A DNA stretch of 64,000 bases from Alkaliphilus metalliredigens QYMF (GTDB taxonomy: Bacteria > Bacillota > Clostridia > Peptostreptococcales > Natronincolaceae), in NCBI RefSeq assembly GCF_000016985.1, contig NC_009633.1, positions 4,135,539 through 4,199,538 of the forward strand, given 5' to 3'. Of the stretch, positions 31,615-46,080 are shown in pieces. Position numbers and translations under genes: made by a program. The notes beneath the pieces were generated by a model. It worked only from the letters and a program-made list of their open reading frames with translations, searched no databases and had not been told where the DNA came from. Positions within the stretch are counted from its first letter, which is position 1, and each line of letters begins with the position of its first letter.

Positions 31615-33642
31615 TTATTTATTGAAGGCTTTGTCAAGACATTCCTTAACTAACTCATCCTTTGGTATATAGGGAATGGTAATATGATCACTGCCTTGAT
31701 TCGCTTGGTTATACTCAATACTGGTAGAAATGGAATTCTCATTTCTAGCCCAAGCTCTTCTAGCTACACCGCCCATTACATCCCAAGGCATGGCACTGCT
31801 TAGAATTGTATCTACTCGTTCACTTCCATCTAATACCATACCAAAACCACCATTGATGGATTTTCCGATACCAACGCCCCCCCCATTGTGAAGGGCTATT
31901 AAACTCATTCCTCTAGCAGCATTCCCTGCAAAGCATTGGGTAGCCATATCAGCCATGACATTACTTCCATCCTTGATGTTAGCTGTTTCTCTAAAGGGAG
32001 AGTCTGTACCACTGACATCATGGTGATCTCTTCCTAGCATAATGGGACCCACTTCACCATTTCTCACCATTTCATTAAACTTCAATGCAATTTTGGTTCT
32101 TCCCATGGCGTCCTGATATAAAATTCTAGCCTGGGTACCCACTACCAATTGATTTTTTTCCGCATCCCTAATCCACACATAATTGTCTCGATCCTGCCCA
32201 CGGCGATTTGGGTCAATACATGCCATGGCCATCTGATCTGTTTTTCTTAAGTCCTCTTTTTCTCCACTTAGGCAAACCCATCTAAAGGGACCATAGCCAT
32301 AGTCAAAAAGTTCAGGACCCATGATATCCTCCACATAAGAAGGGAAGATAAATCCATCTTTTTCATCAATTCCATTTTTGGATATTTCCGTCACTCCAGC
32401 ATCATAAACTGCCTTCATGAAGGAATTACCATAGTCAAAGAAGTAGGTACCTTGCTCTACTAGCTTCTTGATCATATTAAAGTGTTCTCTTAGGGTTTCA
32501 TCAACTAATTGTTTAAAGCCCTCACGATTCCCTTGCAGCATTTCAGTTCTTGCTTCAAAGGACAATCCCTGTGGACAATATCCACCATCGTAAGCCGCAT
32601 GACAAGATGTCTGATCCGATAATAAATCGATATGCAGATTGTGTGCTACAGCATAGGCCAATAGATCTACAATATTGCCATGATAAGCAATGGAAATGGG
32701 TTCTTTTTTCTCCATGTACTCCTTAGCAATACGGAATACTTCAGCCAAATCCGAAGAAACTTCACTGACCCACCCCTGTTGATGTCGGGTTTCAATACGA
32801 GAAAGGTCTACCTCTGCGATAATACCCACACCATTAGAAATTTCCACAGCCTTAGGTTGTGCACCACTCATACCACCCAATCCTGAAGTAACAAATAACT
32901 TTCCTCTCAAATCCTCATCATCTTTTAGCCCGAGCTTTAATCGTCCAGCATTTAGCAGGGTGTTAAATGTCCCATGTACAATTCCCTGGGGTCCAATATA
33001 CATCCACCCACCGGCAGTCATTTGTCCATAGTTTGCCACACCCATCTGTTGTGCCACATCCCAATCCTTTGTGTTATCAAACATTCCTATCATCAGGGCA
33101 TTTGTAATAATCACCCGGGGACTGTCTGGCTTAGACTTAAATAATCCTAAGGGATGTCCTGATTCAATGACTAATGTTTGTTCCTGGGTCATCACCTCTA
33201 AATACTTTTTAATCAGCTGATATTGCATCCAATTTTGAAAGACACTTCCTGTTTCTCCATAGGTAACAAGCTCATAGGGATACAACGCCACATCAAAGTC
33301 AAGATTATTATCAATCATTACCTGGAAGGCTTTTCCCTCAACACAGTTCCCCTTATACTCATCAATTGTTTTTGCCTTCATCCTTCCCTCAGGTCTAAAT
33401 CGATAACCATAAATGCGTCCCCTGGTCATCAGTTCCTCTAAAAATTCAGGAGCAACAGTTTCATGGTATTTTTCTGGTACATATCTCAGGGCATTCTTCA
33501 AGGCGACCTCCGTCTGCTCTAGGGTCAATTTAAACCCGCGATTAGGGGCCCTGCGAATCCCTTCAGTAAACTTCGGCAAATCTGGCAATACATCATCTAA
33601 TTTGATCGTCATGGCATTACCAATGTCTAAGTTTGAAATCAT
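31615..33642 (-). CDS. hutU: Urocanate hydratase
   Basis: A 675-residue protein of the long clostridial/fusobacterial type (Bacillus HutU has about 550). Visible motifs are FVTSGLGGMSGAQPKA (NAD+ binding, about 270), GYGPFRWVCLSGEKEDL with the conserved cysteine (about 470), and HNGGGVGIGKSINGGFG near the end. It hydrates urocanate to imidazolone propionate. GAGGAGG lies 7 bases before the ATG at 33642. No hutH or hutI is in this window, so the pathway must be completed elsewhere. Confidence 0.95.
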   Translation of the reverse strand: MISNLDIGNAMTIKLDDVLPDLPKFTEGIRRAPNRGFKLTLEQTEVALKNALRYVPEKYHETVAPEFLEELMTRGRIYGYRFRPEGRMKAKTIDEYKGNCVEGKAFQVMIDNNLDFDVALYPYELVTYGETGSVFQNWMQYQLIKKYLEVMTQEQTLVIESGHPLGLFKSKPDSPRVIITNALMIGMFDNTKDWDVAQQMGVANYGQMTAGGWMYIGPQGIVHGTFNTLLNAGRLKLGLKDDEDLRGKLFVTSGLGGMSGAQPKAVEISNGVGIIAEVDLSRIETRHQQGWVSEVSSDLAEVFRIAKEYMEKKEPISIAYHGNIVDLLAYAVAHNLHIDLLSDQTSCHAAYDGGYCPQGLSFEARTEMLQGNREGFKQLVDETLREHFNMIKKLVEQGTYFFDYGNSFMKAVYDAGVTEISKNGIDEKDGFIFPSYVEDIMGPELFDYGYGPFRWVCLSGEKEDLRKTDQMAMACIDPNRRGQDRDNYVWIRDAEKNQLVVGTQARILYQDAMGRTKIALKFNEMVRNGEVGPIMLGRDHHDVSGTDSPFRETANIKDGSNVMADMATQCFAGNAARGMSLIALHNGGGVGIGKSINGGFGMVLDGSERVDTILSSAMPWDVMGGVARRAWARNENSISTSIEYNQANQGSDHITIPYIPKDELVKECLDKAFNK

Positions 33643-33863
33643 TCTTAGTCCTCCTCTATTCTTTTTTTTAGTATACAATACTTCCGTCTCCACATCGTCT
33701 ATTTTTGATTTAGGGCAAATTTGTTAGAATTTAAAGAATGATGAAGATAATAGTTGAACTTTGCATTTTTTAAAGGCATATTTCGATTTCATCCATTTGA
33801 TTTCTACCATATAAAGTGCTAAACTATTGTTTACTATACAAAATATGGTATGGAGGCGTGAGT

Positions 33864-34529
33864 ATGAAAAACACTTTTATTTCTGTAGAAGGCCCCATCG
33901 GCGTGGGCAAAACAACACTTACAAATATTTTAGCTAAGCACCTCGATTCCTTTGCATTAAAAGAAATTGTAGAAGACAATCCCTATCTTAAAAGTTTTTA
34001 TGAAAACGTTGAAGAATATGCATTTCAAACGGAAATGTTTTTTCTTTGTAATCGAATTAAGCAACTAGAAGACGTTCAAAAAAAATACTTAGACCGTGGT
34101 TTATCCGTTGTCTCGGATTATAATATCATTAAAAACCTTGTTTTCGCTGGTTTGAACCTTCAGAATGGAAAGTTCCAAAAATATAGACAGGTTTATGCCA
34201 TATTAGCTGACCAGCTTCCTCAATCGGATATTATCATTTATCTGTATGGAGACACTGATTTATTAATGAAACGCATTGAAATGCGCGACCGCCCTTTTGA
34301 ACGCAATATGAGTCGTGATTATATTGATCGCTTAAATCGTGAATATCAACATTATTTTGACCCTTGTTCTTTAAAGCATTATTTTGGTACCAAGATTCCC
34401 AAGGTCATTTCAATTAATGTCAATCATCGAGATTTTGTCAATTGTCCCCAGGACGTGGCCTATGTTTTAAAGGAAATTCAGCGAGTCCATGAAGTGAGTA
34501 CATCCTCACAGGAGGTACAATCATGTTAA
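33864..34529 (+). CDS. Deoxynucleoside kinase, first of tandem pair
   Basis: A 221-residue kinase. P-loop GPIGVGKTT (about 9-17), EIVEDNPYLKSFYEN, a DRG/YNIIKN region with SDYNII where many relatives have D-R-S, and LID-type RDRPFERNM. It phosphorylates deoxyadenosine, deoxycytidine or deoxyguanosine for salvage. GGAGGCGTGAGT precedes the ATG, and a TTGATT-17-TAAACT promoter may lie near 33800. It overlaps its paralog by 7 bp, as in the paired kinases of Lactobacillus and Bacillus. Which base each one prefers cannot be read from sequence. Confidence 0.9.
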   Translation: MKNTFISVEGPIGVGKTTLTNILAKHLDSFALKEIVEDNPYLKSFYENVEEYAFQTEMFFLCNRIKQLEDVQKKYLDRGLSVVSDYNIIKNLVFAGLNLQNGKFQKYRQVYAILADQLPQSDIIIYLYGDTDLLMKRIEMRDRPFERNMSRDYIDRLNREYQHYFDPCSLKHYFGTKIPKVISINVNHRDFVNCPQDVAYVLKEIQRVHEVSTSSQEVQSC

Positions 34530-35212
34530 CAAAGTTTATGGTACATAATGATTATGTCCCTCAAAGTAAAGATGATCATGAGGGTCGTTTTATTACAGTT
34601 GCAGGCAATGTCGGTGCTGGAAAATCTACATTCACCAGAATATTAGGTCAATCGTTACAATTTAATACAAGCTTCGAGAAAGTGATTGGAAATCCCTATT
34701 TGGAAGATTTCTATCGAGATCAAAAGAGATGGAGTTTCCATTTACAGCTCTACTTTTTAAGCCAACGCTTTCAAGATCAAAAACGCATTGGTCAAGAAAA
34801 GTCTCATCACATTCAAGATAGAAGCATCTATGAAGATGTTGAGATCTTTGCTAAATCTTTATATGAAAATAGGAAAATGTCACAAAGAGACTTTGATACT
34901 TATTCAGAATTATTCTACTGTATGATGACCCCTTATTTAATCAAACCAGATTTGATGATTTTTCTAAATGGAAGCATCGATACGGTTTTAAATCGGATTG
35001 ACAAACGAGGAAGAGCTATGGAAAAGCAAGTTCCCAAAAGCTATTGGATGGATCTTCATAGACGCTATGAGCAATGGATCAGTGAGTACAAAGAGTCTCC
35101 TGTTTTAGTGGTTAATATTGATGAGGCAGATCTCTTGGCCCGACCTGATCAAGTGGATTTGATTAAGAAGGAAATTCAAAATATTTTAAATGTAAAAAAT
35201 AATTATCAATAG
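34523..35212 (+). CDS. Deoxynucleoside kinase, second of tandem pair
   Basis: A 229-residue paralog of the preceding gene with P-loop GNVGAGKST, the catalytic DRSIYEDVE (aspartate-arginine-serine motif, complete here), and lid residues KRGRAMEKQVP. The pair probably forms a heterodimer by analogy with the lactobacillar dAK/dGK enzymes. AGGAGG precedes the ATG. Its last three codons and stop lie inside a segment duplicated near 40700, so its C-terminus may have been replaced by a rearrangement. Confidence 0.9.
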   Translation: MLTKFMVHNDYVPQSKDDHEGRFITVAGNVGAGKSTFTRILGQSLQFNTSFEKVIGNPYLEDFYRDQKRWSFHLQLYFLSQRFQDQKRIGQEKSHHIQDRSIYEDVEIFAKSLYENRKMSQRDFDTYSELFYCMMTPYLIKPDLMIFLNGSIDTVLNRIDKRGRAMEKQVPKSYWMDLHRRYEQWISEYKESPVLVVNIDEADLLARPDQVDLIKKEIQNILNVKNNYQ

Positions 35213-35263
35213 GAAGAAATCAACTGATTTCAGAATAATATCTTTCATAAAAAAATAGAAGCT
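35202..35263 (+). repeat. Direct repeat of the agrB 3' region
   Basis: About 60 bp starting TTATCAATAGGA and ending at AAAATAGAAG is nearly identical to 40689-40805, apart from the palindromic insertion there. It covers the end of the kinase gene and looks like a leftover 3' end of an agrB-like gene. The two copies bracket the IS21 element and agrB. Confidence 0.7.
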
Positions 35264-35284
35264 CAGTATCATACTAAGCTTCTA
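35248..35284 (-). terminator. Terminator after secreted-protein gene
   Basis: TAGAAGCT-AGTAT/ATACT-AGCTTCTA hairpin at 35256-35284. On the minus strand it is followed by a seven-T tract, 15 bases after the stop of the next gene. Confidence 0.8.
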
Positions 35285-35769: not shown

Positions 35770-35937
35770 TTTTACACCCTCTCTTAAGATGTAGTAAATC
35801 ATATAGTATCTCTATTCACTACATCTTATATTCATCCAATACAAATCCAGTGGAAATTTAAACAGCTCTATTAATTCTTAAACAGCTAAAGTTGCACTAC
35901 TTGTATTACCTGTGCTTAAACTCAAGGAGTCGTTAAA

Positions 35938-36465
35938 TTAAAAAATAATATTCAAATCTTTTTGCGTGAAATCTGTTATCTCCATGTAGTTTACTAAACT
36001 CCCTGTATTTTTTTGAATAGATACTAATATATTGAGTTTTTCTCCATCAAGTTCTGTAATTTTGTATGTTACGATTTCGTCAGTTTCAATATCCTTTTCA
36101 ATAGCCATGTTTCTATATTTATTTAATCCGCATAGTTTGAGTTTAGTAAACTCAACATATGGATGTCTACCAGCAAATGAAGATAAATTAATTATTTCTT
36201 CTAATCCGTTCGATAAAACTTCAGTTACTTTGACTGATGTTCCTGTTTCTCCTACTTCATATATGCCTTTGTATTGCTTTTCGTTATTTTCTTTGACTTC
36301 TAAGATCTCGATTATACGGTTATTTACATTTTCTCTATTTATATTGGCCTCTATATGCTTATTTTCACCAAAATAATCTACAGTACCTTTTACCAATAAC
36401 GTTGATGTAACTGGCAAGTGTTTTGGGAGAAATTTTGGCAAATAGTTTTCCATAGTAATTTCCAA
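35938..36465 (-). CDS. Unknown protein beside the IS21 element
   Basis: About 171-175 residues, no signal peptide, no known motif. The start is uncertain: TTG at 36465 sits four bases after GGAG, while ATG at 36453 is 16 bases away. The abrupt start next to an insertion sequence suggests it may be the detached 3' part of a longer gene, possibly that of the stalk-domain protein at 39095-39775. This is inference only. Confidence 0.5.
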   Translation of the reverse strand: MEITMENYLPKFLPKHLPVTSTLLVKGTVDYFGENKHIEANINRENVNNRIIEILEVKENNEKQYKGIYEVGETGTSVKVTEVLSNGLEEIINLSSFAGRHPYVEFTKLKLCGLNKYRNMAIEKDIETDEIVTYKITELDGEKLNILVSIQKNTGSLVNYMEITDFTQKDLNIIF

Positions 36466-39094: not shown

Positions 39095-39775
39095 TTATTG
39101 TAGTAAATTGGAAATTATTCTCCGTTTTTGTTTGCCAAAATCTCTCCCTTTTATTTTACCAGTTACAGTTGATTTAGCCTCATACTCTGAAATAGCATCT
39201 ATAATAGCTTGTTGTTCGTCAGAAAAATTATTAACTCCAATAGTTGATGAACGATCGCCTACTATAATGATTTGTTTACTGTTATTTTCATACTCTACTA
39301 TAAAACCAAAAGTTTCAGTAATGAAACGAAGAGGAACATAGCTACGATCATTTACAAGTATATAATCTACTCCTGGCTTAATTACTGTTTCGTTACCACT
39401 TTTTATCATTGCTCCCCCATATTCATTATATAAATGTATTTTAGGAGTTATGATGATTTCCTTTTCATTGTCTGATAATAATACTGATTTATCTAACTCA
39501 TTATAGTTAACATTAAGGTGAAAAATTTTTGCTATATCTCCAACTGGTATATAAGTATAATCTTGAAAAACAAATGGACTTCCCTTAATTACATAATCAT
39601 TTTTATTTATATTAACGTGATAATCTGAATCAAAATTTGTCTCATGGAAGGCTTTAGGTAATTTCATATTCAATTTAATAGACGTTGCTGATATGCCATA
39701 TGTATTTCCATAAAAGGAATAAAGAACAAATATAGATAAAATTATTACAATTTTTTTTGTTTTTTTTATATTCAT
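39095..39775 (-). CDS. Secreted stalk-domain (copper amine oxidase N-like) protein, possibly truncated
   Basis: About 226 residues with a signal peptide (IVIILSIFVLYSFYG). Two stalk-type repeats follow: YTYIPVGDIAKIFHLNVNY and RSYVPLRFITETFGFIVEY, the copper amine oxidase N-terminal-like domain common in secreted Firmicute proteins. GAGGAG lies 8 bases before ATG 39775. The last residues (IISNLLQ) are encoded within 25 bp of the likely IS21 end, so the gene may be cut off by the insertion. Confidence 0.7.
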   Translation of the reverse strand: MNIKKTKKIVIILSIFVLYSFYGNTYGISATSIKLNMKLPKAFHETNFDSDYHVNINKNDYVIKGSPFVFQDYTYIPVGDIAKIFHLNVNYNELDKSVLLSDNEKEIIITPKIHLYNEYGGAMIKSGNETVIKPGVDYILVNDRSYVPLRFITETFGFIVEYENNSKQIIIVGDRSSTIGVNNFSDEQQAIIDAISEYEAKSTVTGKIKGRDFGKQKRRIISNLLQ

Positions 39776-39958
39776 AGTTATATCTCCTCGTATAATATTA
39801 TGGAAATGACGGCCATCATAATTCCCAATGTAAATATTTTTATTTTTAAACAATTTCAGCAGCTTTGTCTATATTATAGTGATAGTGGATGTAGATTCGT
39901 TTTTTGCTTTTGGTTGGTCAATCTTCTGACATTTTCGATTAGAAAATTTATTTTAACC

Positions 39959-40126
39959 TTTATTACACTTTTAATATAACATAAAATTACCTCTATTTTT
40001 TATTACTGTAATGAAATAGGAGTAAAAAGGAATGAAAAGGTACATAAACTTTTTCATTCCTTTTTACTCCCGTTTCGTTCCCTTTTAATTGTATATTATT
40101 TACAATCGTGTTATGATTCATTTTGT
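39959..40126 (+). repeat. agr upstream region, copy 1 of a 168-bp direct repeat
   Basis: This stretch is nearly identical to 43598-43767, with a small number of substitutions. It contains the operator and promoter described separately and ends just before the agrB ribosome binding site. The copies drive agrB and agrD respectively. Confidence 0.9.
40019..40117 (+). promoter_or_regulatory. agrB promoter with five nonamer operator repeats
   Basis: TTGTAT at 40089-40094 and TATGAT at 40112-40117 are 17 bp apart. Three direct copies of TTTYRYTCC lie at 40052-40060, 40062-40070 and 40073-40081, seven bp before the weak -35. Two inverted copies lie at 40019-40027 and 40029-40037. Together they form a perfect 20-bp-arm inverted repeat (40019-40038 with 40051-40070). 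Direct repeats beside a weak -35 are the pattern of LytTR/AgrA-activated promoters; the regulator at 45237-45956 is the obvious candidate. Confidence 0.7.
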
Positions 40127-40142
40127 TAAAGGAGTTGGCGAT

Positions 40143-40724
40143 ATGAAAATACATAGTCCTATTGATATTTTTGCTTATAGAATCTACAAGGAAAAGTTAT
40201 TATCTCACGATGATATTCGTAAAATGAAATATGCCATGAAAGTGATTTGGAATGAAGGGGTAAAGTTTATAGTATTACTGTTATTTTTTGTAGTCTTAGA
40301 CCAATTACCTTCGTTTTTATTTTCTTTAAGTATTCTACTATCTATTCGTGTATTTTCTGGTGGGTTACACTTTCAAAGTGGGTTGTTATGCTTTATGGTA
40401 AGTCTTGGATTTTTTTCCTTAGCTGTTTTAATTTTACCCCATTTCTTTCCCATGACACTCCACATTGCTCCTATACTGACACTACTTAGTGCTATCGTAA
40501 TTTATTATCATTCTCCCAAGCCTTCTATCTTTCGGCCTATATTCAATAAAAAGAGAAAAAGGACTCTCAAATACTTATCCCTCTTCTCTACACTGCTATG
40601 GTTCTTTCTTCTATTTAGATTTGTTTTGCCAAATAATCAAAATTTTTTTGAATGTGGCATATGGACAATCTCTTTACAAGCATTTCAGTTATCAATAGGA
40701 AAAAATCAACCGATTTCAGAATAA
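40143..40724 (+). CDS. agrB: AgrB accessory gene regulator protease
   Basis: A 193-residue integral membrane peptidase with about five to six hydrophobic segments. The catalytic pair His76 and Cys83 is present in RVFSGGLHFQSGLLC, matching His77/Cys84 of the staphylococcal enzyme. It trims the C-terminus of the AgrD precursor and forms the ring. AAAGGAG lies 8 bases before ATG 40143. No agrD follows: 8 bp after the stop begins a palindrome left by an insertion sequence. The only agrD is 3.1 kb away. Confidence 0.9.
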   Translation: MKIHSPIDIFAYRIYKEKLLSHDDIRKMKYAMKVIWNEGVKFIVLLLFFVVLDQLPSFLFSLSILLSIRVFSGGLHFQSGLLCFMVSLGFFSLAVLILPHFFPMTLHIAPILTLLSAIVIYYHSPKPSIFRPIFNKKRKRTLKYLSLFSTLLWFFLLFRFVLPNNQNFFECGIWTISLQAFQLSIGKNQPISE

Positions 40725-40805
40725 TATGTTCCCACTAGTGTTCAATTAATGGATTTTAAATCCATTAATTGAACACTAGTGATATGTTTGATAAAAAAAT
40801 AGAAG
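40689..40805 (+). repeat. Partner copy of the 35202-35263 repeat
   Basis: The agrB 3' end and the DNA after it (interrupted by the 49-bp palindrome) match the segment next to the kinase gene. The paired copies flank 5.4 kb containing the IS21 element, the stalk-domain gene and agrB. Confidence 0.7.
40733..40781. mobile_element. 49-bp perfect palindrome made of two IS ends
   Basis: Two 24-base arms meet around a single T (40757). Each arm starts CACTAGTGTTCAATTAATGG, identical to the right end of the truncated IS at 43499. ATATGTT occurs on both sides (40724-40730 and 40782-40788), like a target duplication. It is therefore a minimal insertion of two head-to-head IS ends, just after agrB. Confidence 0.75.
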
Positions 40806-40918
40806 TTCACCTTCTCTTAAATTATTCATCGTATTACTTACCATTATATGACAACCAATTACTTCCTACAATATCGTCATACTCTAACGCTCTTAATCCC
40901 TGCTAAATAAGGCATATA

Positions 40919-41083
40919 TCAACGTCTACGACCAAGGTATATAAGTAGCCCAAGTGGTCCAAGAAAAAATGGTAGTGCAACAAATATTAGAGAAATATTT
41001 CTTTTTCGTACATCAATTAAAACATAAATTGTTGATAATATATATCCAAATAGAATTAGCATCTCAACAAGCCCAATTCGCAT
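40919..41083 (-). CDS. 54-residue two-helix membrane protein
   Basis: From ATG 41083 the protein has two hydrophobic helices (VEMLILFGYILSTIYVLI, about 6-23, and ISLIFVALPFFLGPLGLLIY, about 30-49) and ends GRRR, as in small PLD-nuclease N-terminal-like membrane proteins. GAGG lies 13 bases upstream. A second copy of its first 14 codons sits at 43500-43541, cut by the IS end. Function unknown; an immunity or sensor role is only a guess. Confidence 0.6.
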   Translation of the reverse strand: MRIGLVEMLILFGYILSTIYVLIDVRKRNISLIFVALPFFLGPLGLLIYLGRRR

Positions 41084-41123
41084 AATTATTTTATTACCTC
41101 TTTTCTTAAATATTTGGTTTTAG

Positions 41124-41288
41124 TTAATGGTAAGCGTAAAGTCTAGTAATAATAGGCTCTTCAAAAACAGGATTATTTAAGAGTTGATCTATTTCAGCAA
41201 GCTCAGGTGTTAACTCAAAAAGAGATTTAGGGAGAGATTCAGCAATCAATGTTGGTTGTTCCCAGTTGGGATAATCTAGAATTAGCAT
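41124..41288 (-). CDS. 54-residue protein, possible transposase N-terminal fragment
   Basis: From ATG 41288, with AAAGGAAGTG upstream, the protein reads LDYPNWEQPTLIAESLPKSL and ends in LYAYH. The Trp/Pro-rich opening recalls N-termini of some transposases, but I cannot name one. No membrane segment. An 11-bp inverted repeat (41304-41314 with 41374-41384) lies just upstream and may be an operator or an old IS end. Confidence 0.45.
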   Translation of the reverse strand: MLILDYPNWEQPTLIAESLPKSLFELTPELAEIDQLLNNPVFEEPIITRLYAYH

Positions 41289-41303
41289 AGTACACTTCCT
41301 TTC

Positions 41304-41384
41304 AAATCAGATTTATTACTATACTAATTCAACATAATTGCCTAAAATCCTTTTTGATTGTAAAAAAATAATCAAATCTGATTT
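41304..41384. repeat. 11-bp inverted repeat AAATCAGATTT/AAATCTGATTT
   Basis: The arms at 41304-41314 and 41374-41384 are perfect complements and lie upstream of the 54-residue gene. The rest of 41385-41573 is AT-rich and shows no gene. Confidence 0.4.
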
Positions 41385-41573
41385 TATCAGGTTAAACTAA
41401 TTAAGCATTCGATAACTAAGCTTATAAATAATGAGACATTTAGTTAGACGCTATGGCTTGAAAGTTAACCAGTATATAATTCCATAAAAATCGAAAATAT
41501 TGTTTTATAAGGATAGTTGTATTTAATTTTACTGGAATATATTCCCTGAAGGCTTAATTGTAAAGCTCCATCA

Positions 41574-41633
41574 CAAAACTGAAAAAAATTTTAAAAATCA
41601 ATAGAAATATTATCTAATTTTTTAACACTAGTG
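41574..41633. mobile_element. Inverted end fragment of the IS4-like element
   Basis: These 60 bp are the reverse complement, with a few changes, of 42569-42627, the left end of the truncated IS. The terminal CACTAGTG points toward the secreted-protein gene, as does the terminus at 42569, so that gene lies between two facing IS ends. Confidence 0.8.
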
Positions 41634-41660
41634 TTAAATTATCGAACTTAATTCAATTAC

Positions 41661-42515
41661 TTATTCTCCTGGAGTTTCTTCAGTTTCTACAATGTCTTCA
41701 GTGTTTACTGATTCAAGCACGAACTCACCTATGACTGTTTTGCCATCAACCTCATATAAAGGTATTTTTTTTGTATCTTTATTTTTTTGTTTTTCTTTTT
41801 GTTTCTTTATAGCTTCTTCAGGATTATTAGCTGCTTCAGGCTCAAGATCTTTAGAACGAACATATCCTAAAGCGCCATTTGAACCACGAGCTTTAATCAA
41901 GTCTGGAGCCACTCCCAAAGTAGCTTCTTGCAATCCTGAACCATATGTTTCACCATTGCTATTTACTTTATACTCTGAATTATCTAGACTTGTTGATGCA
42001 TCATTAATATTAACAACTTGGTTATTCTCAGGAGTCATAGAAGTATATGATAAAGTAGATTTACTTCCATCTTCAAGAGTCATAATAGGACTCTTGTATG
42101 TATAATACGTGTTATATGTATTTCCATTATATAACTTAACTTTTCCATAACTATAGTAAGATCCATTATGTTCTGCAAATGTAGGTACATTCATTCCTAC
42201 TGTTCTTTCACCACTATATCTCCATTCTTTCGCTGAACTATATAGATAATCATTTGAATCATATACTCTAGGAAGTGCACCCATAAGTCCAGCTTGAGTA
42301 CTACCACTAGTAAGACCTACGTATGTTCCTGCTCTTAAGCTTTTATGTCCATCTTGTATATCAGCAAAATATTTGTAACTTTTGCCATTTACTGTAGCAG
42401 TTTTATGATTACTTTCACTAGCAGTTGCAAAAACTATTCCTCCACCTAAAACACCTACAGCTAAAACAAAAGAGCCGGTAGCTAAAGCTAAATTTTTACA
42501 AAAATTTCTTTTCAT
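41661..42515 (-). CDS. Secreted protein between two IS ends, unknown
   Basis: A 284-residue protein with a signal peptide (LALATGSFVLAVGVLGGGIVFA). The mature part is rich in Tyr, Ser, Asn and Gly, with ALPRVYDSNDYLYSS, YNTYYTYKSPIMTL and DLIKARGSNGALGYVRSKDL. A Lys-rich linker (KKQKEKQKNKDTKK, about 238-251) leads to a short domain IPLYEVDGKTVIGEF. I have seen this C-terminal pattern in clostridial secreted proteins but know no function. It lies within 28 bp of one IS end and 53 bp of the other, so it may have been carried by the element. Confidence 0.65.
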   Translation of the reverse strand: MKRNFCKNLALATGSFVLAVGVLGGGIVFATASESNHKTATVNGKSYKYFADIQDGHKSLRAGTYVGLTSGSTQAGLMGALPRVYDSNDYLYSSAKEWRYSGERTVGMNVPTFAEHNGSYYSYGKVKLYNGNTYNTYYTYKSPIMTLEDGSKSTLSYTSMTPENNQVVNINDASTSLDNSEYKVNSNGETYGSGLQEATLGVAPDLIKARGSNGALGYVRSKDLEPEAANNPEEAIKKQKEKQKNKDTKKIPLYEVDGKTVIGEFVLESVNTEDIVETEETPGE

Positions 42516-42568
42516 TTTTTATACTCTCCTTTTCTTTTTAATGATATTACTTTTTATTCATACTATTT

Positions 42569-43499
42569 CACTAGTGTTCAAAAATTAGATAGTATTTCTA
42601 TTGATTTTTAAAATTTTTTCAGTTTTGTTGACTTGCACCTTCATCCAGTAGCTTGATTTGGGAGTAAGTAATATCAAGAGTTTCAACTTCTTGTACTGTT
42701 GCATTGTCTTCCAATCTTGTAATAAAATATTTTTCATCACTGATGAATTTGTCAAACTTTTTATAGTCCACATAGGCTTTATCCAGTACATATATACAGT
42801 TTTTCTCGGTCATTAGTTCTTCCATTTTCTTTTTATCATGGACCTTAGCATTTGAAACAATCACCAGTTCAGGGATACCTCTTCCTAAGTCATACTTTGT
42901 ATGAAATTTAATCCCTGCTTTTGTAGTTCTAAACTCCGCCCATTTCAAAGTAAGATAGCGCCATACTTATTGTTGAAGAATCAATGAGTTTCACAGGTTT
43001 AAATATTGCAGCTCTATTATTTACAGGTAATTTATTCATGGCTGTAGCAATAATTTGATTCATTAAAGGGACATATACCTCAAAATTTATATCATTGTTG
43101 TAGTTTGACAAATAACCGATGCTAACACCATTGATCAGTTCCTTTAAGTCTGAATCGGATTTCATGAAGTCATGGATATCTCTTAAGCTATCTAGTTGGG
43201 CTACATGAAAGTATATCAGCGCTTTTAAGTGATTTTGAGCAATATAATAGTTAGTATCTAGTAGATAAGTAGACTCTTTCAATTTTTGCCAATCAATGAT
43301 GTCTAATAATTTTTCGAAAATAGTGATATAATTATTCTTAACCAATAGTCAGTACCCCCTTGCAAATATGGTTAGTGGTGTAATTATATTAAAGCAAGGG
43401 TTACTGACTATTTTCATGACTAAATTTAAGGAAAATGATGAAATTAATGGATACTAAGTATTATCAATGGATTTTAAATCCATTAATTGAACACTAGTG
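42569..43499 (-). mobile_element. Truncated IS4-like (DUF4372-type) insertion sequence
   Basis: The ends share CACTAGTGTTCAA in inverted orientation (42569-42581 and 43487-43499). The 931-bp length is below that of a complete element and the transposase inside is frameshifted and lacks its C-terminal part. It interrupts a second copy of the 54-residue membrane-protein gene at 43500. Confidence 0.8.
42619..43345 (-). pseudogene. Frameshifted, truncated IS4-type transposase
   Basis: The first part (42929-43345) starts NYITIFEKLLDIIDWQKL, has DUF4372-like features and the first catalytic aspartate in KLIDSSTISM. One extra base near 42950 breaks the frame after LSYFE. The next frame continues KWAEFRTTKAGIKFH and the second aspartate region YVLDKAYVDYKKF, then stops at 42619 before the conserved Glu region. 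Both damage events make it inactive. Another copy would have to supply transposase. Confidence 0.85.
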
Positions 43500-43544
43500 A
43501 TATCCGAATAAAATTAACATCTCCATAAGCCCAATTCCCATAAT
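43500..43544 (-). pseudogene. 5' stub of a second 54-residue membrane-protein gene
   Basis: MGIGLMEMLILFGY matches the first 14 residues of the protein at 40919-41083 (MRIGLVEMLILFGY), then the IS end adds a His and a stop. Its upstream DNA (43545-43580) also matches 41084-41115. This documents a second copy of the locus before the IS inserted. Confidence 0.8.
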
Positions 43545-43597
43545 AATTAGATTACCTCATTTCTTAAATATTGAAATATCATAGGTACTTCTTGTTC

Positions 43598-43767
43598 CTT
43601 ATTACACTTTCAATATAACATAAAATTGCCTCTATTTTTTATTACTGTAATGAAATGGGAGTAAAAAGGAATGAAAAGGTATACAATCTTTTTCATTCCT
43701 TTTTACTCCTATTTCGTTCCTTTTGAATTGTATATTATTTACAGTTGTGTTATGATTCATTTTAGTT
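43598..43767 (+). repeat. agr upstream region, copy 2 of the direct repeat
   Basis: Near-identical to 39959-40126. The match ends at GATTCATTTT, after which this copy joins the last codons of an agrB gene instead of its start. Confidence 0.9.
43658..43756 (+). promoter_or_regulatory. agrD promoter with the same five nonamer repeats
   Basis: TTGTAT at 43728-43733, 17-bp spacer, TATGAT at 43751-43756. TTTYRYTCC copies at 43691-43699, 43701-43709 and 43712-43720, again seven bp before the -35, with inverted copies in 43658-43676. The 20-bp-arm inverted repeat (43658-43677 with 43690-43709) is perfect in this copy too, although the loop sequence differs, which suggests the arms are kept by selection. 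Confidence 0.7.
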
Positions 43768-43769
43768 CA

Positions 43770-43844
43770 AGCTGTGGGTTACAAGTATTCCAACAATCAG
43801 TAGAAAGGAGGTACATCGATGAAAAACAATCATTCAATATTTAA
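43770..43844 (+). pseudogene. 3' stub of agrB ahead of agrD
   Basis: In the frame starting at 43770 the sequence reads SCGLQVFQQSVERRYIDE and stops at 43844. LQVFQQSVE matches LQAFQLSIG at the end of the intact AgrB. The reading frame overlaps the agrD start by 26 bp, the usual agrB-agrD arrangement. All upstream agrB codons, including His/Cys, are gone, so this is an internal deletion joining the promoter to the gene's tail. Confidence 0.75.
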
Positions 43845-43959
43845 AGTTGTTTTATTCTCATTTGCATCTATGTTTGTTCTTGCTTCAGATATGATTGCTC
43901 TCTCTGGCTCAATCGTTCTTTGGGGAGAACCAAAGTGCCCTAAAAATTTACTAAAGTAA
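43819..43959 (+). CDS. agrD: AgrD cyclic autoinducer peptide precursor
   Basis: A 46-residue precursor. The N-terminal amphipathic part (FKVVLFSFASMFVLA) is followed by ALSGSIVLWGEPKCPKNLLK. The signature is a five-residue ring segment before GEPxxP, so the likely ring is Ser31-Trp35 and AgrB should cut after Trp35. There is no cysteine in the ring segment; the only one, Cys40, is in the discarded tail. The signal would be a lactone through Ser31, not a thiolactone. AAAGGAGG precedes the ATG. It converges with the kinase gene with a 9-bp overlap. Confidence 0.85.
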   Translation: MKNNHSIFKVVLFSFASMFVLASDMIALSGSIVLWGEPKCPKNLLK

Positions 43960-45213
43960 TATCTTAAGTACTGTGCAGTCTCCATCAAAGGAAAGCTCTA
44001 TGGTTCCCTGATAACGATCCACAATCTTTTTAACATGATACAGCCCATAGCCCCTATGCTTTCCTTTTTTGGTAGAAAAACCTCTTTCAAATATACGCTC
44101 AATATTTTCTTGTTTGATTATGCCTCCTGTATTTTTCACTTCTATCATACTATAATTTGCTTCTATTCCAAGTGTTAAAAAGACTTTAGGATTTTCAACA
44201 CTACTACTGTCTTCAGCTGCCTCAATTGCATTGTCCAATAAATTACCCAACAATTCAACAAGCTCGTATTTTACTAGTGGAAACACTGGTATCTCACCAC
44301 AAAATTCAACATGAAAGTAGATACCTTGTTTTTCTGCCAAGGATTTTTTACTATAAATAATTGCGCTTAGTACCGGTTCCTTTATATTCAATAGTTGATC
44401 GGTAGACTTCATCCCTTCGATTAACACTTCTAAATATTGTGCAATTTCTTCTTTAGCCTTTAGTGCATCTTCTATTTGCACCAATCCATAAAGGACATTG
44501 AGATGGTTTTTAGATTCATGTTGCATCTCCCTTACTTCATCTACCATATCCTTTAAAATAGGTGTATATTTTTCATGAATATCTATCATTTTTTCTTGCT
44601 CTTTAATTCGTATTGACTGATATAAAAAAAAGATATTTAAGGCTTCCCATATAACCATTGCCAATAATAGATAGACTATGTGATTCCATACAAAGTTTTG
44701 ATTCATTTCCCACATGTATATCAATAACAAAACCATTCCAGTAATGTTTATAGTAATTGAGATCGTATAGTTACTATATTTAAGATAGTTTTGTTTTACC
44801 TTACTTCCCATAATAAGCTTATAGATTATCATACTGACTAGGAGCGTGAATGTATTAATAATGAGTCCGTTAACAAATGAATAGGTGTTAGTATTTCTAA
44901 AAGTTGATAGGAAGTAAGTAAGGGAAAATTGAATACTGAAAATTATTATTAATACAATTAAAAATTGTATTATGGTATCTTTGACAGGGACTTTAAGTAA
45001 CGTAATAACCATCGTACATAATACGATATAGTGAATGATAAAGTCCATATTAACATCATAAACATTAAACATAGCTGCCATTAATGACATCCCCATAACG
45101 ATACAAAGGCTCCTTATTTTATAACGATTAAATTTTTCATTGAATCCACTCCATATCGCTACTATAGCTACCATCTCTAGTATAGAAAGCATCAGTATTT
45201 GGTACCATTCCAT
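43951..45213 (-). CDS. agrC: AgrC-type sensor histidine kinase
   Basis: A 420-residue kinase. Six or so transmembrane segments fill residues 1-200. The phosphoacceptor region is MQHESKNHLNVLYGL (about 233), as in the HPK10 subfamily that senses peptides. The GHKL ATPase follows with ELLGNLLDNAIEAAED (N box) and GRGFSTKKGKHRGYGLYHVK-like G boxes near the end (read in part). It should bind the AgrD-derived peptide and phosphorylate the LytTR regulator upstream. It follows that gene by 23 bp. Confidence 0.88.
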   Translation of the reverse strand: MEWYQILMLSILEMVAIVAIWSGFNEKFNRYKIRSLCIVMGMSLMAAMFNVYDVNMDFIIHYIVLCTMVITLLKVPVKDTIIQFLIVLIIIFSIQFSLTYFLSTFRNTNTYSFVNGLIINTFTLLVSMIIYKLIMGSKVKQNYLKYSNYTISITINITGMVLLLIYMWEMNQNFVWNHIVYLLLAMVIWEALNIFFLYQSIRIKEQEKMIDIHEKYTPILKDMVDEVREMQHESKNHLNVLYGLVQIEDALKAKEEIAQYLEVLIEGMKSTDQLLNIKEPVLSAIIYSKKSLAEKQGIYFHVEFCGEIPVFPLVKYELVELLGNLLDNAIEAAEDSSSVENPKVFLTLGIEANYSMIEVKNTGGIIKQENIERIFERGFSTKKGKHRGYGLYHVKKIVDRYQGTIELSFDGDCTVLKILL

Positions 45214-45236
45214 AAAGCACCCTCCCTCCTTATACT

Positions 45237-45956
45237 TTATCCTAAGTATTGTTCTAAAAAAATGTCTCTATATTTATGGCTGATATAAGCGACTAAAGGG
45301 TACTCCTTAAAGTACACAGGCCAAGCATTTTTTTCATGTTTCTCTATTCGGTAGATATTCTCCAGATTAATGATATAAGATTTATGGGTTTGCATAAATT
45401 GATAGGCTGCTACTTTCTCTAATACTTGCTTCATTGTCATATTAGGAATCGTATACTGATCACTCTTTGTATAAACCATACATTTTTTTCCTTGAGATTC
45501 AATAAACAAAATATCTCTTATGAAAACTTTTAAAATACAGCTTTTTATTTCAAATCGTATTGCTTGATTAGTATTACTGTTCTGTATAACACCTCTTATT
45601 AAACGATCAAAAATTTTTGATACCTGTTCTTGCTTATATGGTTTTTCTATAAAATCATAGCAGTGATATTTTTTAAAAGCTTCAAGTTGATAATAAACAT
45701 GAGTCGTAATAAAGACAATATAAGTTAATTCATATTGAGGCATAGACCGAATCTTCTCTGCAATTTTCAAACCTGAAAAATCAGGAAGTTCAATATCTAA
45801 AAAAAACAATGAAATTCTTTCTTCGTTTACTATTTTTATGGCATCTTCTCCTGTAGTGGCTTGAAATATGTTGAGATTTTTGTTTAAACACTTGAGCATT
45901 CTAATTAAGTTTTTTCTTTCAACCTGATTATCTTCAACAACAAGAATATTTAACAT
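45237..45956 (-). CDS. agrA: AgrA-type LytTR response regulator
   Basis: A 239-residue protein. Receiver domain with acidic pocket VVEDN and phosphoacceptor Asp in FFLDIELPD (about 56). The C-terminal LytTR DNA-binding domain begins near 135 and has MQTHKSYIINLENIYRIEKH. The ATG at 45956 is six bases after GGAGG. LytTR proteins bind pairs of direct nonamers, which makes the TTTYRYTCC repeats before agrB and agrD its likely sites. The gene precedes the kinase, the reverse of the usual agrC-agrA order. Confidence 0.88.
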   Translation of the reverse strand: MLNILVVEDNQVERKNLIRMLKCLNKNLNIFQATTGEDAIKIVNEERISLFFLDIELPDFSGLKIAEKIRSMPQYELTYIVFITTHVYYQLEAFKKYHCYDFIEKPYKQEQVSKIFDRLIRGVIQNSNTNQAIRFEIKSCILKVFIRDILFIESQGKKCMVYTKSDQYTIPNMTMKQVLEKVAAYQFMQTHKSYIINLENIYRIEKHEKNAWPVYFKEYPLVAYISHKYRDIFLEQYLG

Positions 45957-46080
45957 GGTCATCCTCCTTTTCTCTATTTTTCTCTCTTTTTTGCCCTCAT
46001 TATATAGAGCGAATTAGATTAAAAATGTTCCCAAATCTAGTAACTTTTTTATAACGATTTATTTTGTTATATATATTCTA

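Follow-up and report, generated by a model that had tools for sequence, protein, structure and literature searches.

A split agr quorum-sensing locus in Alkaliphilus metalliredigens QYMF, probably formed by complementary losses in two agr units

This study concerns an agr quorum-sensing locus in a stretch of 64,000 nucleotides (nt; hereafter the window) of the Alkaliphilus metalliredigens QYMF genome (contig NC_009633.1, positions 4,135,539 to 4,199,538), a genome that consists of one contig of 4,929,566 bases. At this locus agrB and agrD, which encode a putative processing enzyme and its peptide precursor, are separated by 3,094 bases, with no agrD directly 3' of agrB, and each gene has its own copy of a palindromic promoter region, here referred to as P. 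The agr features are as follows, in window coordinates:

39960..40124, no strand: P1, palindromic promoter region copy 1, flanked by the minus-strand gene at 39095-39778 and the plus-strand agrB
40143..40724, plus strand: agrB copy 1, an open frame of 193 amino acids (aa), matched by Pfam AgrB, with His76 and Cys83 kept
43599..43763, no strand: P2, palindromic promoter region copy 2
43764..43818, plus strand: 3' stub of agrB copy 2 and the ribosome-binding-type sequence of agrD
43819..43959, plus strand: agrD, 46 aa, with a predicted ring Ser31-Ile-Val-Leu-Trp35 followed by the tail GEPKCPKNLLK, matched by TIGR04223
43951..45213, minus strand: agrC, sensor kinase of 420 aa, convergent with agrD as in relatives
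45237..45962, minus strand: agrA, LytTR response regulator of 241 aa

Open reading frames (ORFs) and family matches bear out what a sequence-only reading of this DNA had proposed, namely an open agrB without an agrD behind it, an agrD 3.1 kb further on, and kinase and regulator genes after agrD on the other strand. AgrB scored 119 bits against Pfam AgrB (cut-off 23), and its His76 and Cys83 are invariant across 7 aligned rows; the conserved His and Cys of AgrB proteins have a catalytic role. AgrD scored 23.4 bits against the NCBIfam model TIGR04223 (cut-off 19), and a Pfam search with the 46-aa protein returned no family. Ser31 and Trp35-Gly-Glu are invariant across 8 aligned AgrD rows, and the protein has the N-terminal helix-type stretch and the candidate ring residue five positions before the conserved tail that mark an AgrD precursor. 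The AgrC kinase and the LytTR-type AgrA are encoded next to agrD on the opposite strand. The upstream regions of agrB and agrD had been described as near-identical over 168 base pairs (bp); the similarity holds, and measures 93% over 165 nt (12 of 165 sites differ) or 92% over 173 nt with gaps.

Relatives do not always keep agrB and agrD apart. P-agrB-agrD facing agrC-agrA is contiguous in seven relatives' loci (G001 C25, G001 C17, G015, G016, G005, G011, and G123; G denotes genomes and C contigs). Window-type AgrD was found at 10 places in 6 of 20 genomes in a search of the family, and at 11 places in 7 of 393 genomes in an AgrD alignment search of the order (at most 18 candidates scored per genome), the wider search adding one locus, that of G123. 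Eight of these 11 places lie directly after a full-length or near full-length agrB, i.e., the seven relatives' loci and a pair near 116 kb in the A. metalliredigens genome itself; of the remaining places, one is in the window, one is on G001 C92, and one is a 22-residue remnant at position 120,350 of the A. metalliredigens genome. With general models, 35 of the 44 AgrB matches across the family (20 genomes) are accompanied by a same-strand AgrD match no more than 300 bp away, a count that uses 41 of 55 AgrD rows, 14 below cut-off having been dropped. The nine unpaired AgrB comprise the window, G011 C46, two fragments, and five without any AgrD match nearby. In G011 C46 the order is agrD-agrC-agrB, with agrB and agrD 1.4 kb apart (the middle 452-aa frame was called agrC by eye). 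Since other unpaired AgrB such as this one exist, the separation in the window is unusual, not unique. Two of the contiguous loci carry lesions of their own: the agrB of G011 changes frame within a run of A (L041, 6483-7053), which may be a sequencing error, decay, or slippage, and G005 has a TAG in agrD just after the predicted ring and an agrC without approximately 167 residues (L040, 6409-7303). In trees, AgrB, AgrC, and AgrA of the window cluster with those of C25, C17, and G015. An AgrC search of a wider genome collection, which may omit records near the window genome, returned one remote kinase only.

The two junctions at which the halves were lost are readable. The kinase gene upstream of the locus, the gene divergent from P1, and the features in the gap are as follows:

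34523-35212, 3' end and flank at 35203..35265, plus strand: deoxynucleoside kinase gene (PF01712, 198 bits), the other copy of the kinase flank
39095..39778, minus strand: copper-amine-oxidase N-terminal domain (PF07833) protein, secreted-looking by eye, divergent from P1
40689..40730, plus strand: copied kinase flank joined to agrB, 93% identical to 35203-35244, resuming at 40782-40809
40733..40781, no strand: 49-bp palindrome within the copied flank, matching the two ends of the IS4-type element
40919..41083, minus strand: gene for a 54-aa membrane-type peptide
41400..43501, minus strand: IS4-type element with a passenger gene (41661-42515) and a transposase in pieces (42619-43345)

In copy 1, the agrB frame after codon 182 (from 40689) is a copy of 35203-35265, that is, of the last codons and 3' flank of the deoxynucleoside kinase gene; beyond the palindrome, the copy continues with 40782-40809 (89% to 35238-35265). 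The agrB called intact in the sequence-only reading is thus an open frame, but its last 11 codons are supplied by the copied kinase flank. Because agrB tails of relatives (e.g., G015 and C25) read nearly the same letters at this point, the join probably used a 13-nt microhomology, TTATCAATAGGAA. No agrD remnant was found behind the copy-1 agrB, the join falling in the last agrB codons. In copy 2, P2 ends at 43763 and gives way to an agrB 3' stub, nearly all of agrB being gone. The stub, which had been described as the last 24 codons of a second agrB (43770-43844), is present, though short. Compared with nine agrB 3' tails, its best score was equalled in 0.3% of shuffles; taken singly, five of the nine tails gave p<0.01 and four p>=0.2 (C17, G016, G011, and the 116-kb agrB). 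The distance from its TTACAAG to the agrD start is within one base of that in G015 and G005. Two agr copies with complementary loss, as had been proposed, appear well supported by the contiguous relatives, the two P copies, the agrB stub, and the readable junctions; for the duplication that had been placed before the loss, both tandem duplication and arrival from elsewhere come into consideration.

Tandem duplication in place would be the simplest account of the two units. It is also possible, at somewhat less than even odds, that P1-agrB arrived on a 5.4-kb segment from another agr locus and was inserted at the kinase flank beside a resident unit, which afterwards lost its agrB; this concerns the origin only and is compatible with the explanation preferred below. 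The segment 35245-40688, with agrB copy 1 as its last part, has a kinase-flank copy on either side, and its stretch 35786-36110 is 94% like the right flank of a P site at 4,278 kb; for these reasons unit 1 may have been brought in on a copied segment. As for G005, its whiA is directly followed by the urocanase gene (window counterpart 31615-33693), so that the window stretch between them is extra relative to G005. Yet among ten whiA loci viewed, five showed the downstream side, and G005 is one of these five; the other four (G001, G002, G003, and G011) carry another gene there. The close match between P1 and P2 likewise argues that the units are close kin, or that they were homogenised. The AgrB, AgrC, and AgrA trees do not settle the order inside the group and therefore neither support nor exclude a second source.

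Mobile-element remnants do lie between the two units, as the sequence-only reading had it, but the part in the split at which it hinted is not supported. The 49-bp palindrome, flanked by ATATGTT at 40724-40730 and 40782-40788, is inserted within the copied kinase flank, which must therefore have been joined to agrB before the palindrome arrived. The IS4-type element interrupts a paralogue of the 54-aa gene to the left of P2; the 5' part and upstream region of the 54-aa gene (41042-41114) are repeated at 43500-43572 with 86% identity. Within the element, 42631-43501 is 93% like a copy at 4,028,749 and 41400-41637 is 95% like a copy at 1,906,566 in the same genome. On these positions, the idea that mobile elements caused the split was rejected: since they sit at neither agr junction, they probably decorate the gap rather than having made the split, as far as the sequence reveals, although a role for an element since lost is conceivable. 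Inside the IS4-type element, inverted repeats of approximately 60 nt surround a gene for a 284-aa secreted-looking protein (41573-42628), an arrangement that we take to resemble a mobile insertion cassette with a passenger.

Twelve P regions were aligned, and the palindrome is present in each of them. A 9-bp direct-repeat pair 21 bp apart (half-site drawn from the same twelve sites, <=2 mismatches allowed) occurs in all 12 sites on the agr-proximal strand and in 10 of the 12 on both strands, compared to a mean of 0.0 shuffled sites with pairs on both strands. A 21-bp period is known for LytTR sites. On the agr side, 11 of the 12 sites have a -35/-10-like pair with a 17-18 bp spacer, the exception being the site at 4,278 kb, which is without agrB. 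P is accordingly read as a putative AgrA-regulated bidirectional promoter with candidate AgrA sites. A covariance model of the twelve regions was run on ten chosen genomes; it recovers its own training sites by construction, and beyond these found six strong sites (two in G001, on C79 and at 12.1 kb of C25; one in G015; two in G016; one in G123), all in genomes carrying window-type AgrD. In the three genomes without window-type AgrD, there was no P site in G002 and G019 and a weak one in G004 (E 0.0025); two further weak matches lie in G016 (E 0.004) and G015 (E 0.006).

P was also found away from agr genes, often beside genes for secreted-looking proteins. At 14 of 19 P sites the neighbouring gene, judged by eye, has a signal-like N-terminus and points away from P; by eye, the neighbour is unclear at two (the G123 agr site and 4,278 kb), and at three there is no signal-like neighbour (window P2, where the divergent gene is cut by an insertion sequence; G001 C92, where it is truncated; and the weak G004 site). 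The divergent signal-like gene of C25 starts approximately 800 bases from P, and the gene beside P at 116.9 kb encodes a lactococcin-972 bacteriocin (75 bits, cut-off 22). At 4,278 kb (L020, 3022-3157), the P palindrome lies beside a small peptide frame and a gene for a MacB-like permease.

Whether the window genes have stayed under constraint was assessed from their substitutions and by simulation. Private changes in the window agrB fall at codon positions one to three in numbers of 15, 7, and 23, a ratio of 0.96 compared to 0.88-2.20 in C25, C17, and G015. The window AgrB is altered at 3 of 74 columns that are invariant in the other seven rows, AgrD at 0 of 22 otherwise invariant columns, and AgrA at 1 of 78 columns invariant in six other rows, which suggests that the genes stayed constrained, AgrC least clearly. 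Neutral decay was simulated in 2,000 runs with substitutions only, at a Jukes-Cantor distance of 0.077 taken from the P1-P2 divergence, a choice that treats P as evolving neutrally and dates the split to the divergence of its copies. The P copies may have been homogenised later than the split, in which case the time would be a minimum. Under neutral drift of all four genes, all frames remained open in 0.45% of runs without insertions or deletions (indels). Four open frames by luck would thus be unlikely, with modest evidence for agrB and agrD alone, and the balance of these comparisons leans towards a retained function of the split locus.

The explanation preferred here, with a probability of roughly 60%, is that two tandem agr units lost complementary halves and that the split pair still works as one loop. 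Once two units had come to lie in tandem, unit 1 would have kept P1 and agrB, its agrD being cut off at the join to the copied kinase flank, and unit 2 would have kept P2, agrD, agrC, and agrA, its agrB being deleted save for the 3' stub. AgrB expressed from P1 would then cleave AgrD expressed from P2 and close its residues S-I-V-L-W into a serine-lactone ring, and this pentapeptide would be exported and sensed by AgrC. Phosphorylated AgrA would bind both P copies at their direct-repeat pairs and raise the expression of agrB and agrD as well as that of the divergent gene for a secreted protein, so that the positive loop would run via two promoters rather than one.

Several observations weigh against a working loop. 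In AgrC, 13 of 130 columns that are otherwise invariant carry a change (the other rows have 4-13, and G016 equals the window), and these changes include Phe234 to Ser, two residues after His232; for AgrB, AgrC, and AgrA alike, the end branch of the window protein is longer than any other in its group. When agrB and agrD are taken alone, both frames stay open in 23% of simulations without indels and in 2-7% with assumed indel rates, and the constraint that was measured may for the most part have acted before the split. In addition, a second AgrB of the same subfamily is encoded at 116 kb and is a candidate cross-processor.

On this evidence, the locus might be a dying duplicate, its open frames being young survivors while another locus (e.g., that at 116 kb) provides the signal. 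Broken agr loci are indeed common, as in G005, in G001 C92, and at 663.5-666.9 kb in the A. metalliredigens genome, where an agrD that the window-type AgrD model misses is parted by 3.2 kb from a decayed agrB piece. The 3587-base contig C92 holds a near copy of the C25 locus with agrB and agrC internally deleted, P and agrD intact, agrA reduced to a C-terminal piece close to the end of the contig, and a CARDB-type gene that is, by eye, truncated. As agr loci of the window subfamily are often rearranged, both reuse and decay are plausible. The long end branches and the AgrC changes at conserved columns would fit ongoing decay, which is nevertheless considered rather unlikely, given that all four window genes are open, that AgrB, AgrD, and AgrA retain nearly all conserved columns, and that the neutral simulation so rarely leaves the four frames intact.

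It is less probable still, and distinctly doubtful, that the halves work with other partners, i.e., the 116-kb AgrB on the window AgrD or the window AgrB on the 116-kb AgrD. An intact second agrBD pair elsewhere in the genome, which could have formed the real pair, is found in part: there are four other adjacent agrB-agrD pairs, one of which, at 115.8-116.5 kb, is of the window subfamily. The AgrD of this pair has an almost identical tail (GESKCPKNLLK versus GEPKCPKNLLK) and is 72% identical overall, and the pair has its own P. Its AgrB, however, is only 64% identical and groups with those of G016 and G005, apart from the window AgrB, and the gene set of the window is complete without an outside partner.

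Improbable by a similar measure is the proposal that P-agrD units without agrB arise repeatedly and are kept for their usefulness as signal-only satellites (extra or altered AgrD under the same autoinduced promoter, with AgrB encoded elsewhere), a view in which window unit 2 and the P-(deleted agrB)-agrD unit of G001 C92 would be two independent cases; on this view the window would go a step beyond C92, with enzyme and signal separately tunable.

Compared to known systems, the split locus shares with staphylococcal agrBDCA the AgrB His and Cys, an AgrD precursor, a sensor kinase, and a LytTR regulator. It differs in that agrB and agrD lie in separate units, each with a promoter copy, in that agrC-agrA is convergent instead of downstream, and in that the predicted ring residue is Ser rather than Cys. 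A Ser ring residue also occurs in a few staphylococci. Direct repeats beside the promoter are a further feature in common with staphylococcal agr (PMC4227749 and PMC11161930). According to PMC8534292, agr1 of Clostridioides difficile is a two-gene agrB1-agrD1 locus; there too the agr genes are not all in one operon, but agrB and agrD stay together, whereas the window parts exactly that pair. G011 C46, of the same family, resembles the window in its 1.4-kb separation; its genes, however, stand in one row on one strand, and a duplicated promoter or stubs were not seen there, no search aimed at them having been made. Duplication followed by complementary loss is known as tandem duplication-random loss, with which the window has in common two copies, reciprocal loss, and a remnant of the lost part; what sets it apart is that the two halves belong to a single operon for signal production, which feeds back positively on itself. 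In literature searches of partial coverage, no paper joining agrB, agrD, and Alkaliphilus and nothing like a separated agrB and agrD were found.

As agrB and agrD are usually paired, a natural split allows the purpose of the pairing to be asked, and with it whether a fixed enzyme:substrate dosage matters for the switch. The P palindrome also provides an easy entry to the regulon of this agr subfamily; a bacteriocin of the lactococcin-972 type and several unknown proteins of secreted appearance may belong to it.

The bacteriocin gene belongs to a further rearranged locus of the A. metalliredigens genome (116000-122445), where the complete agrBD pair and its P point away from agrC, and an operon on the other strand, comprising the lactococcin-972-type gene, a large permease gene, and an ATP-binding cassette (ABC) ATPase gene, lies between them. 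A frameshifted agrD stub is left beside agrC-agrA, and the whole looks like a bidirectional module that was turned round. Lastly, on G001 C51, a contig without an AgrB match, an AgrD-like 39-aa frame (2873-2992) has as neighbours a kinase-like fragment and a gene for a LytTR response regulator.

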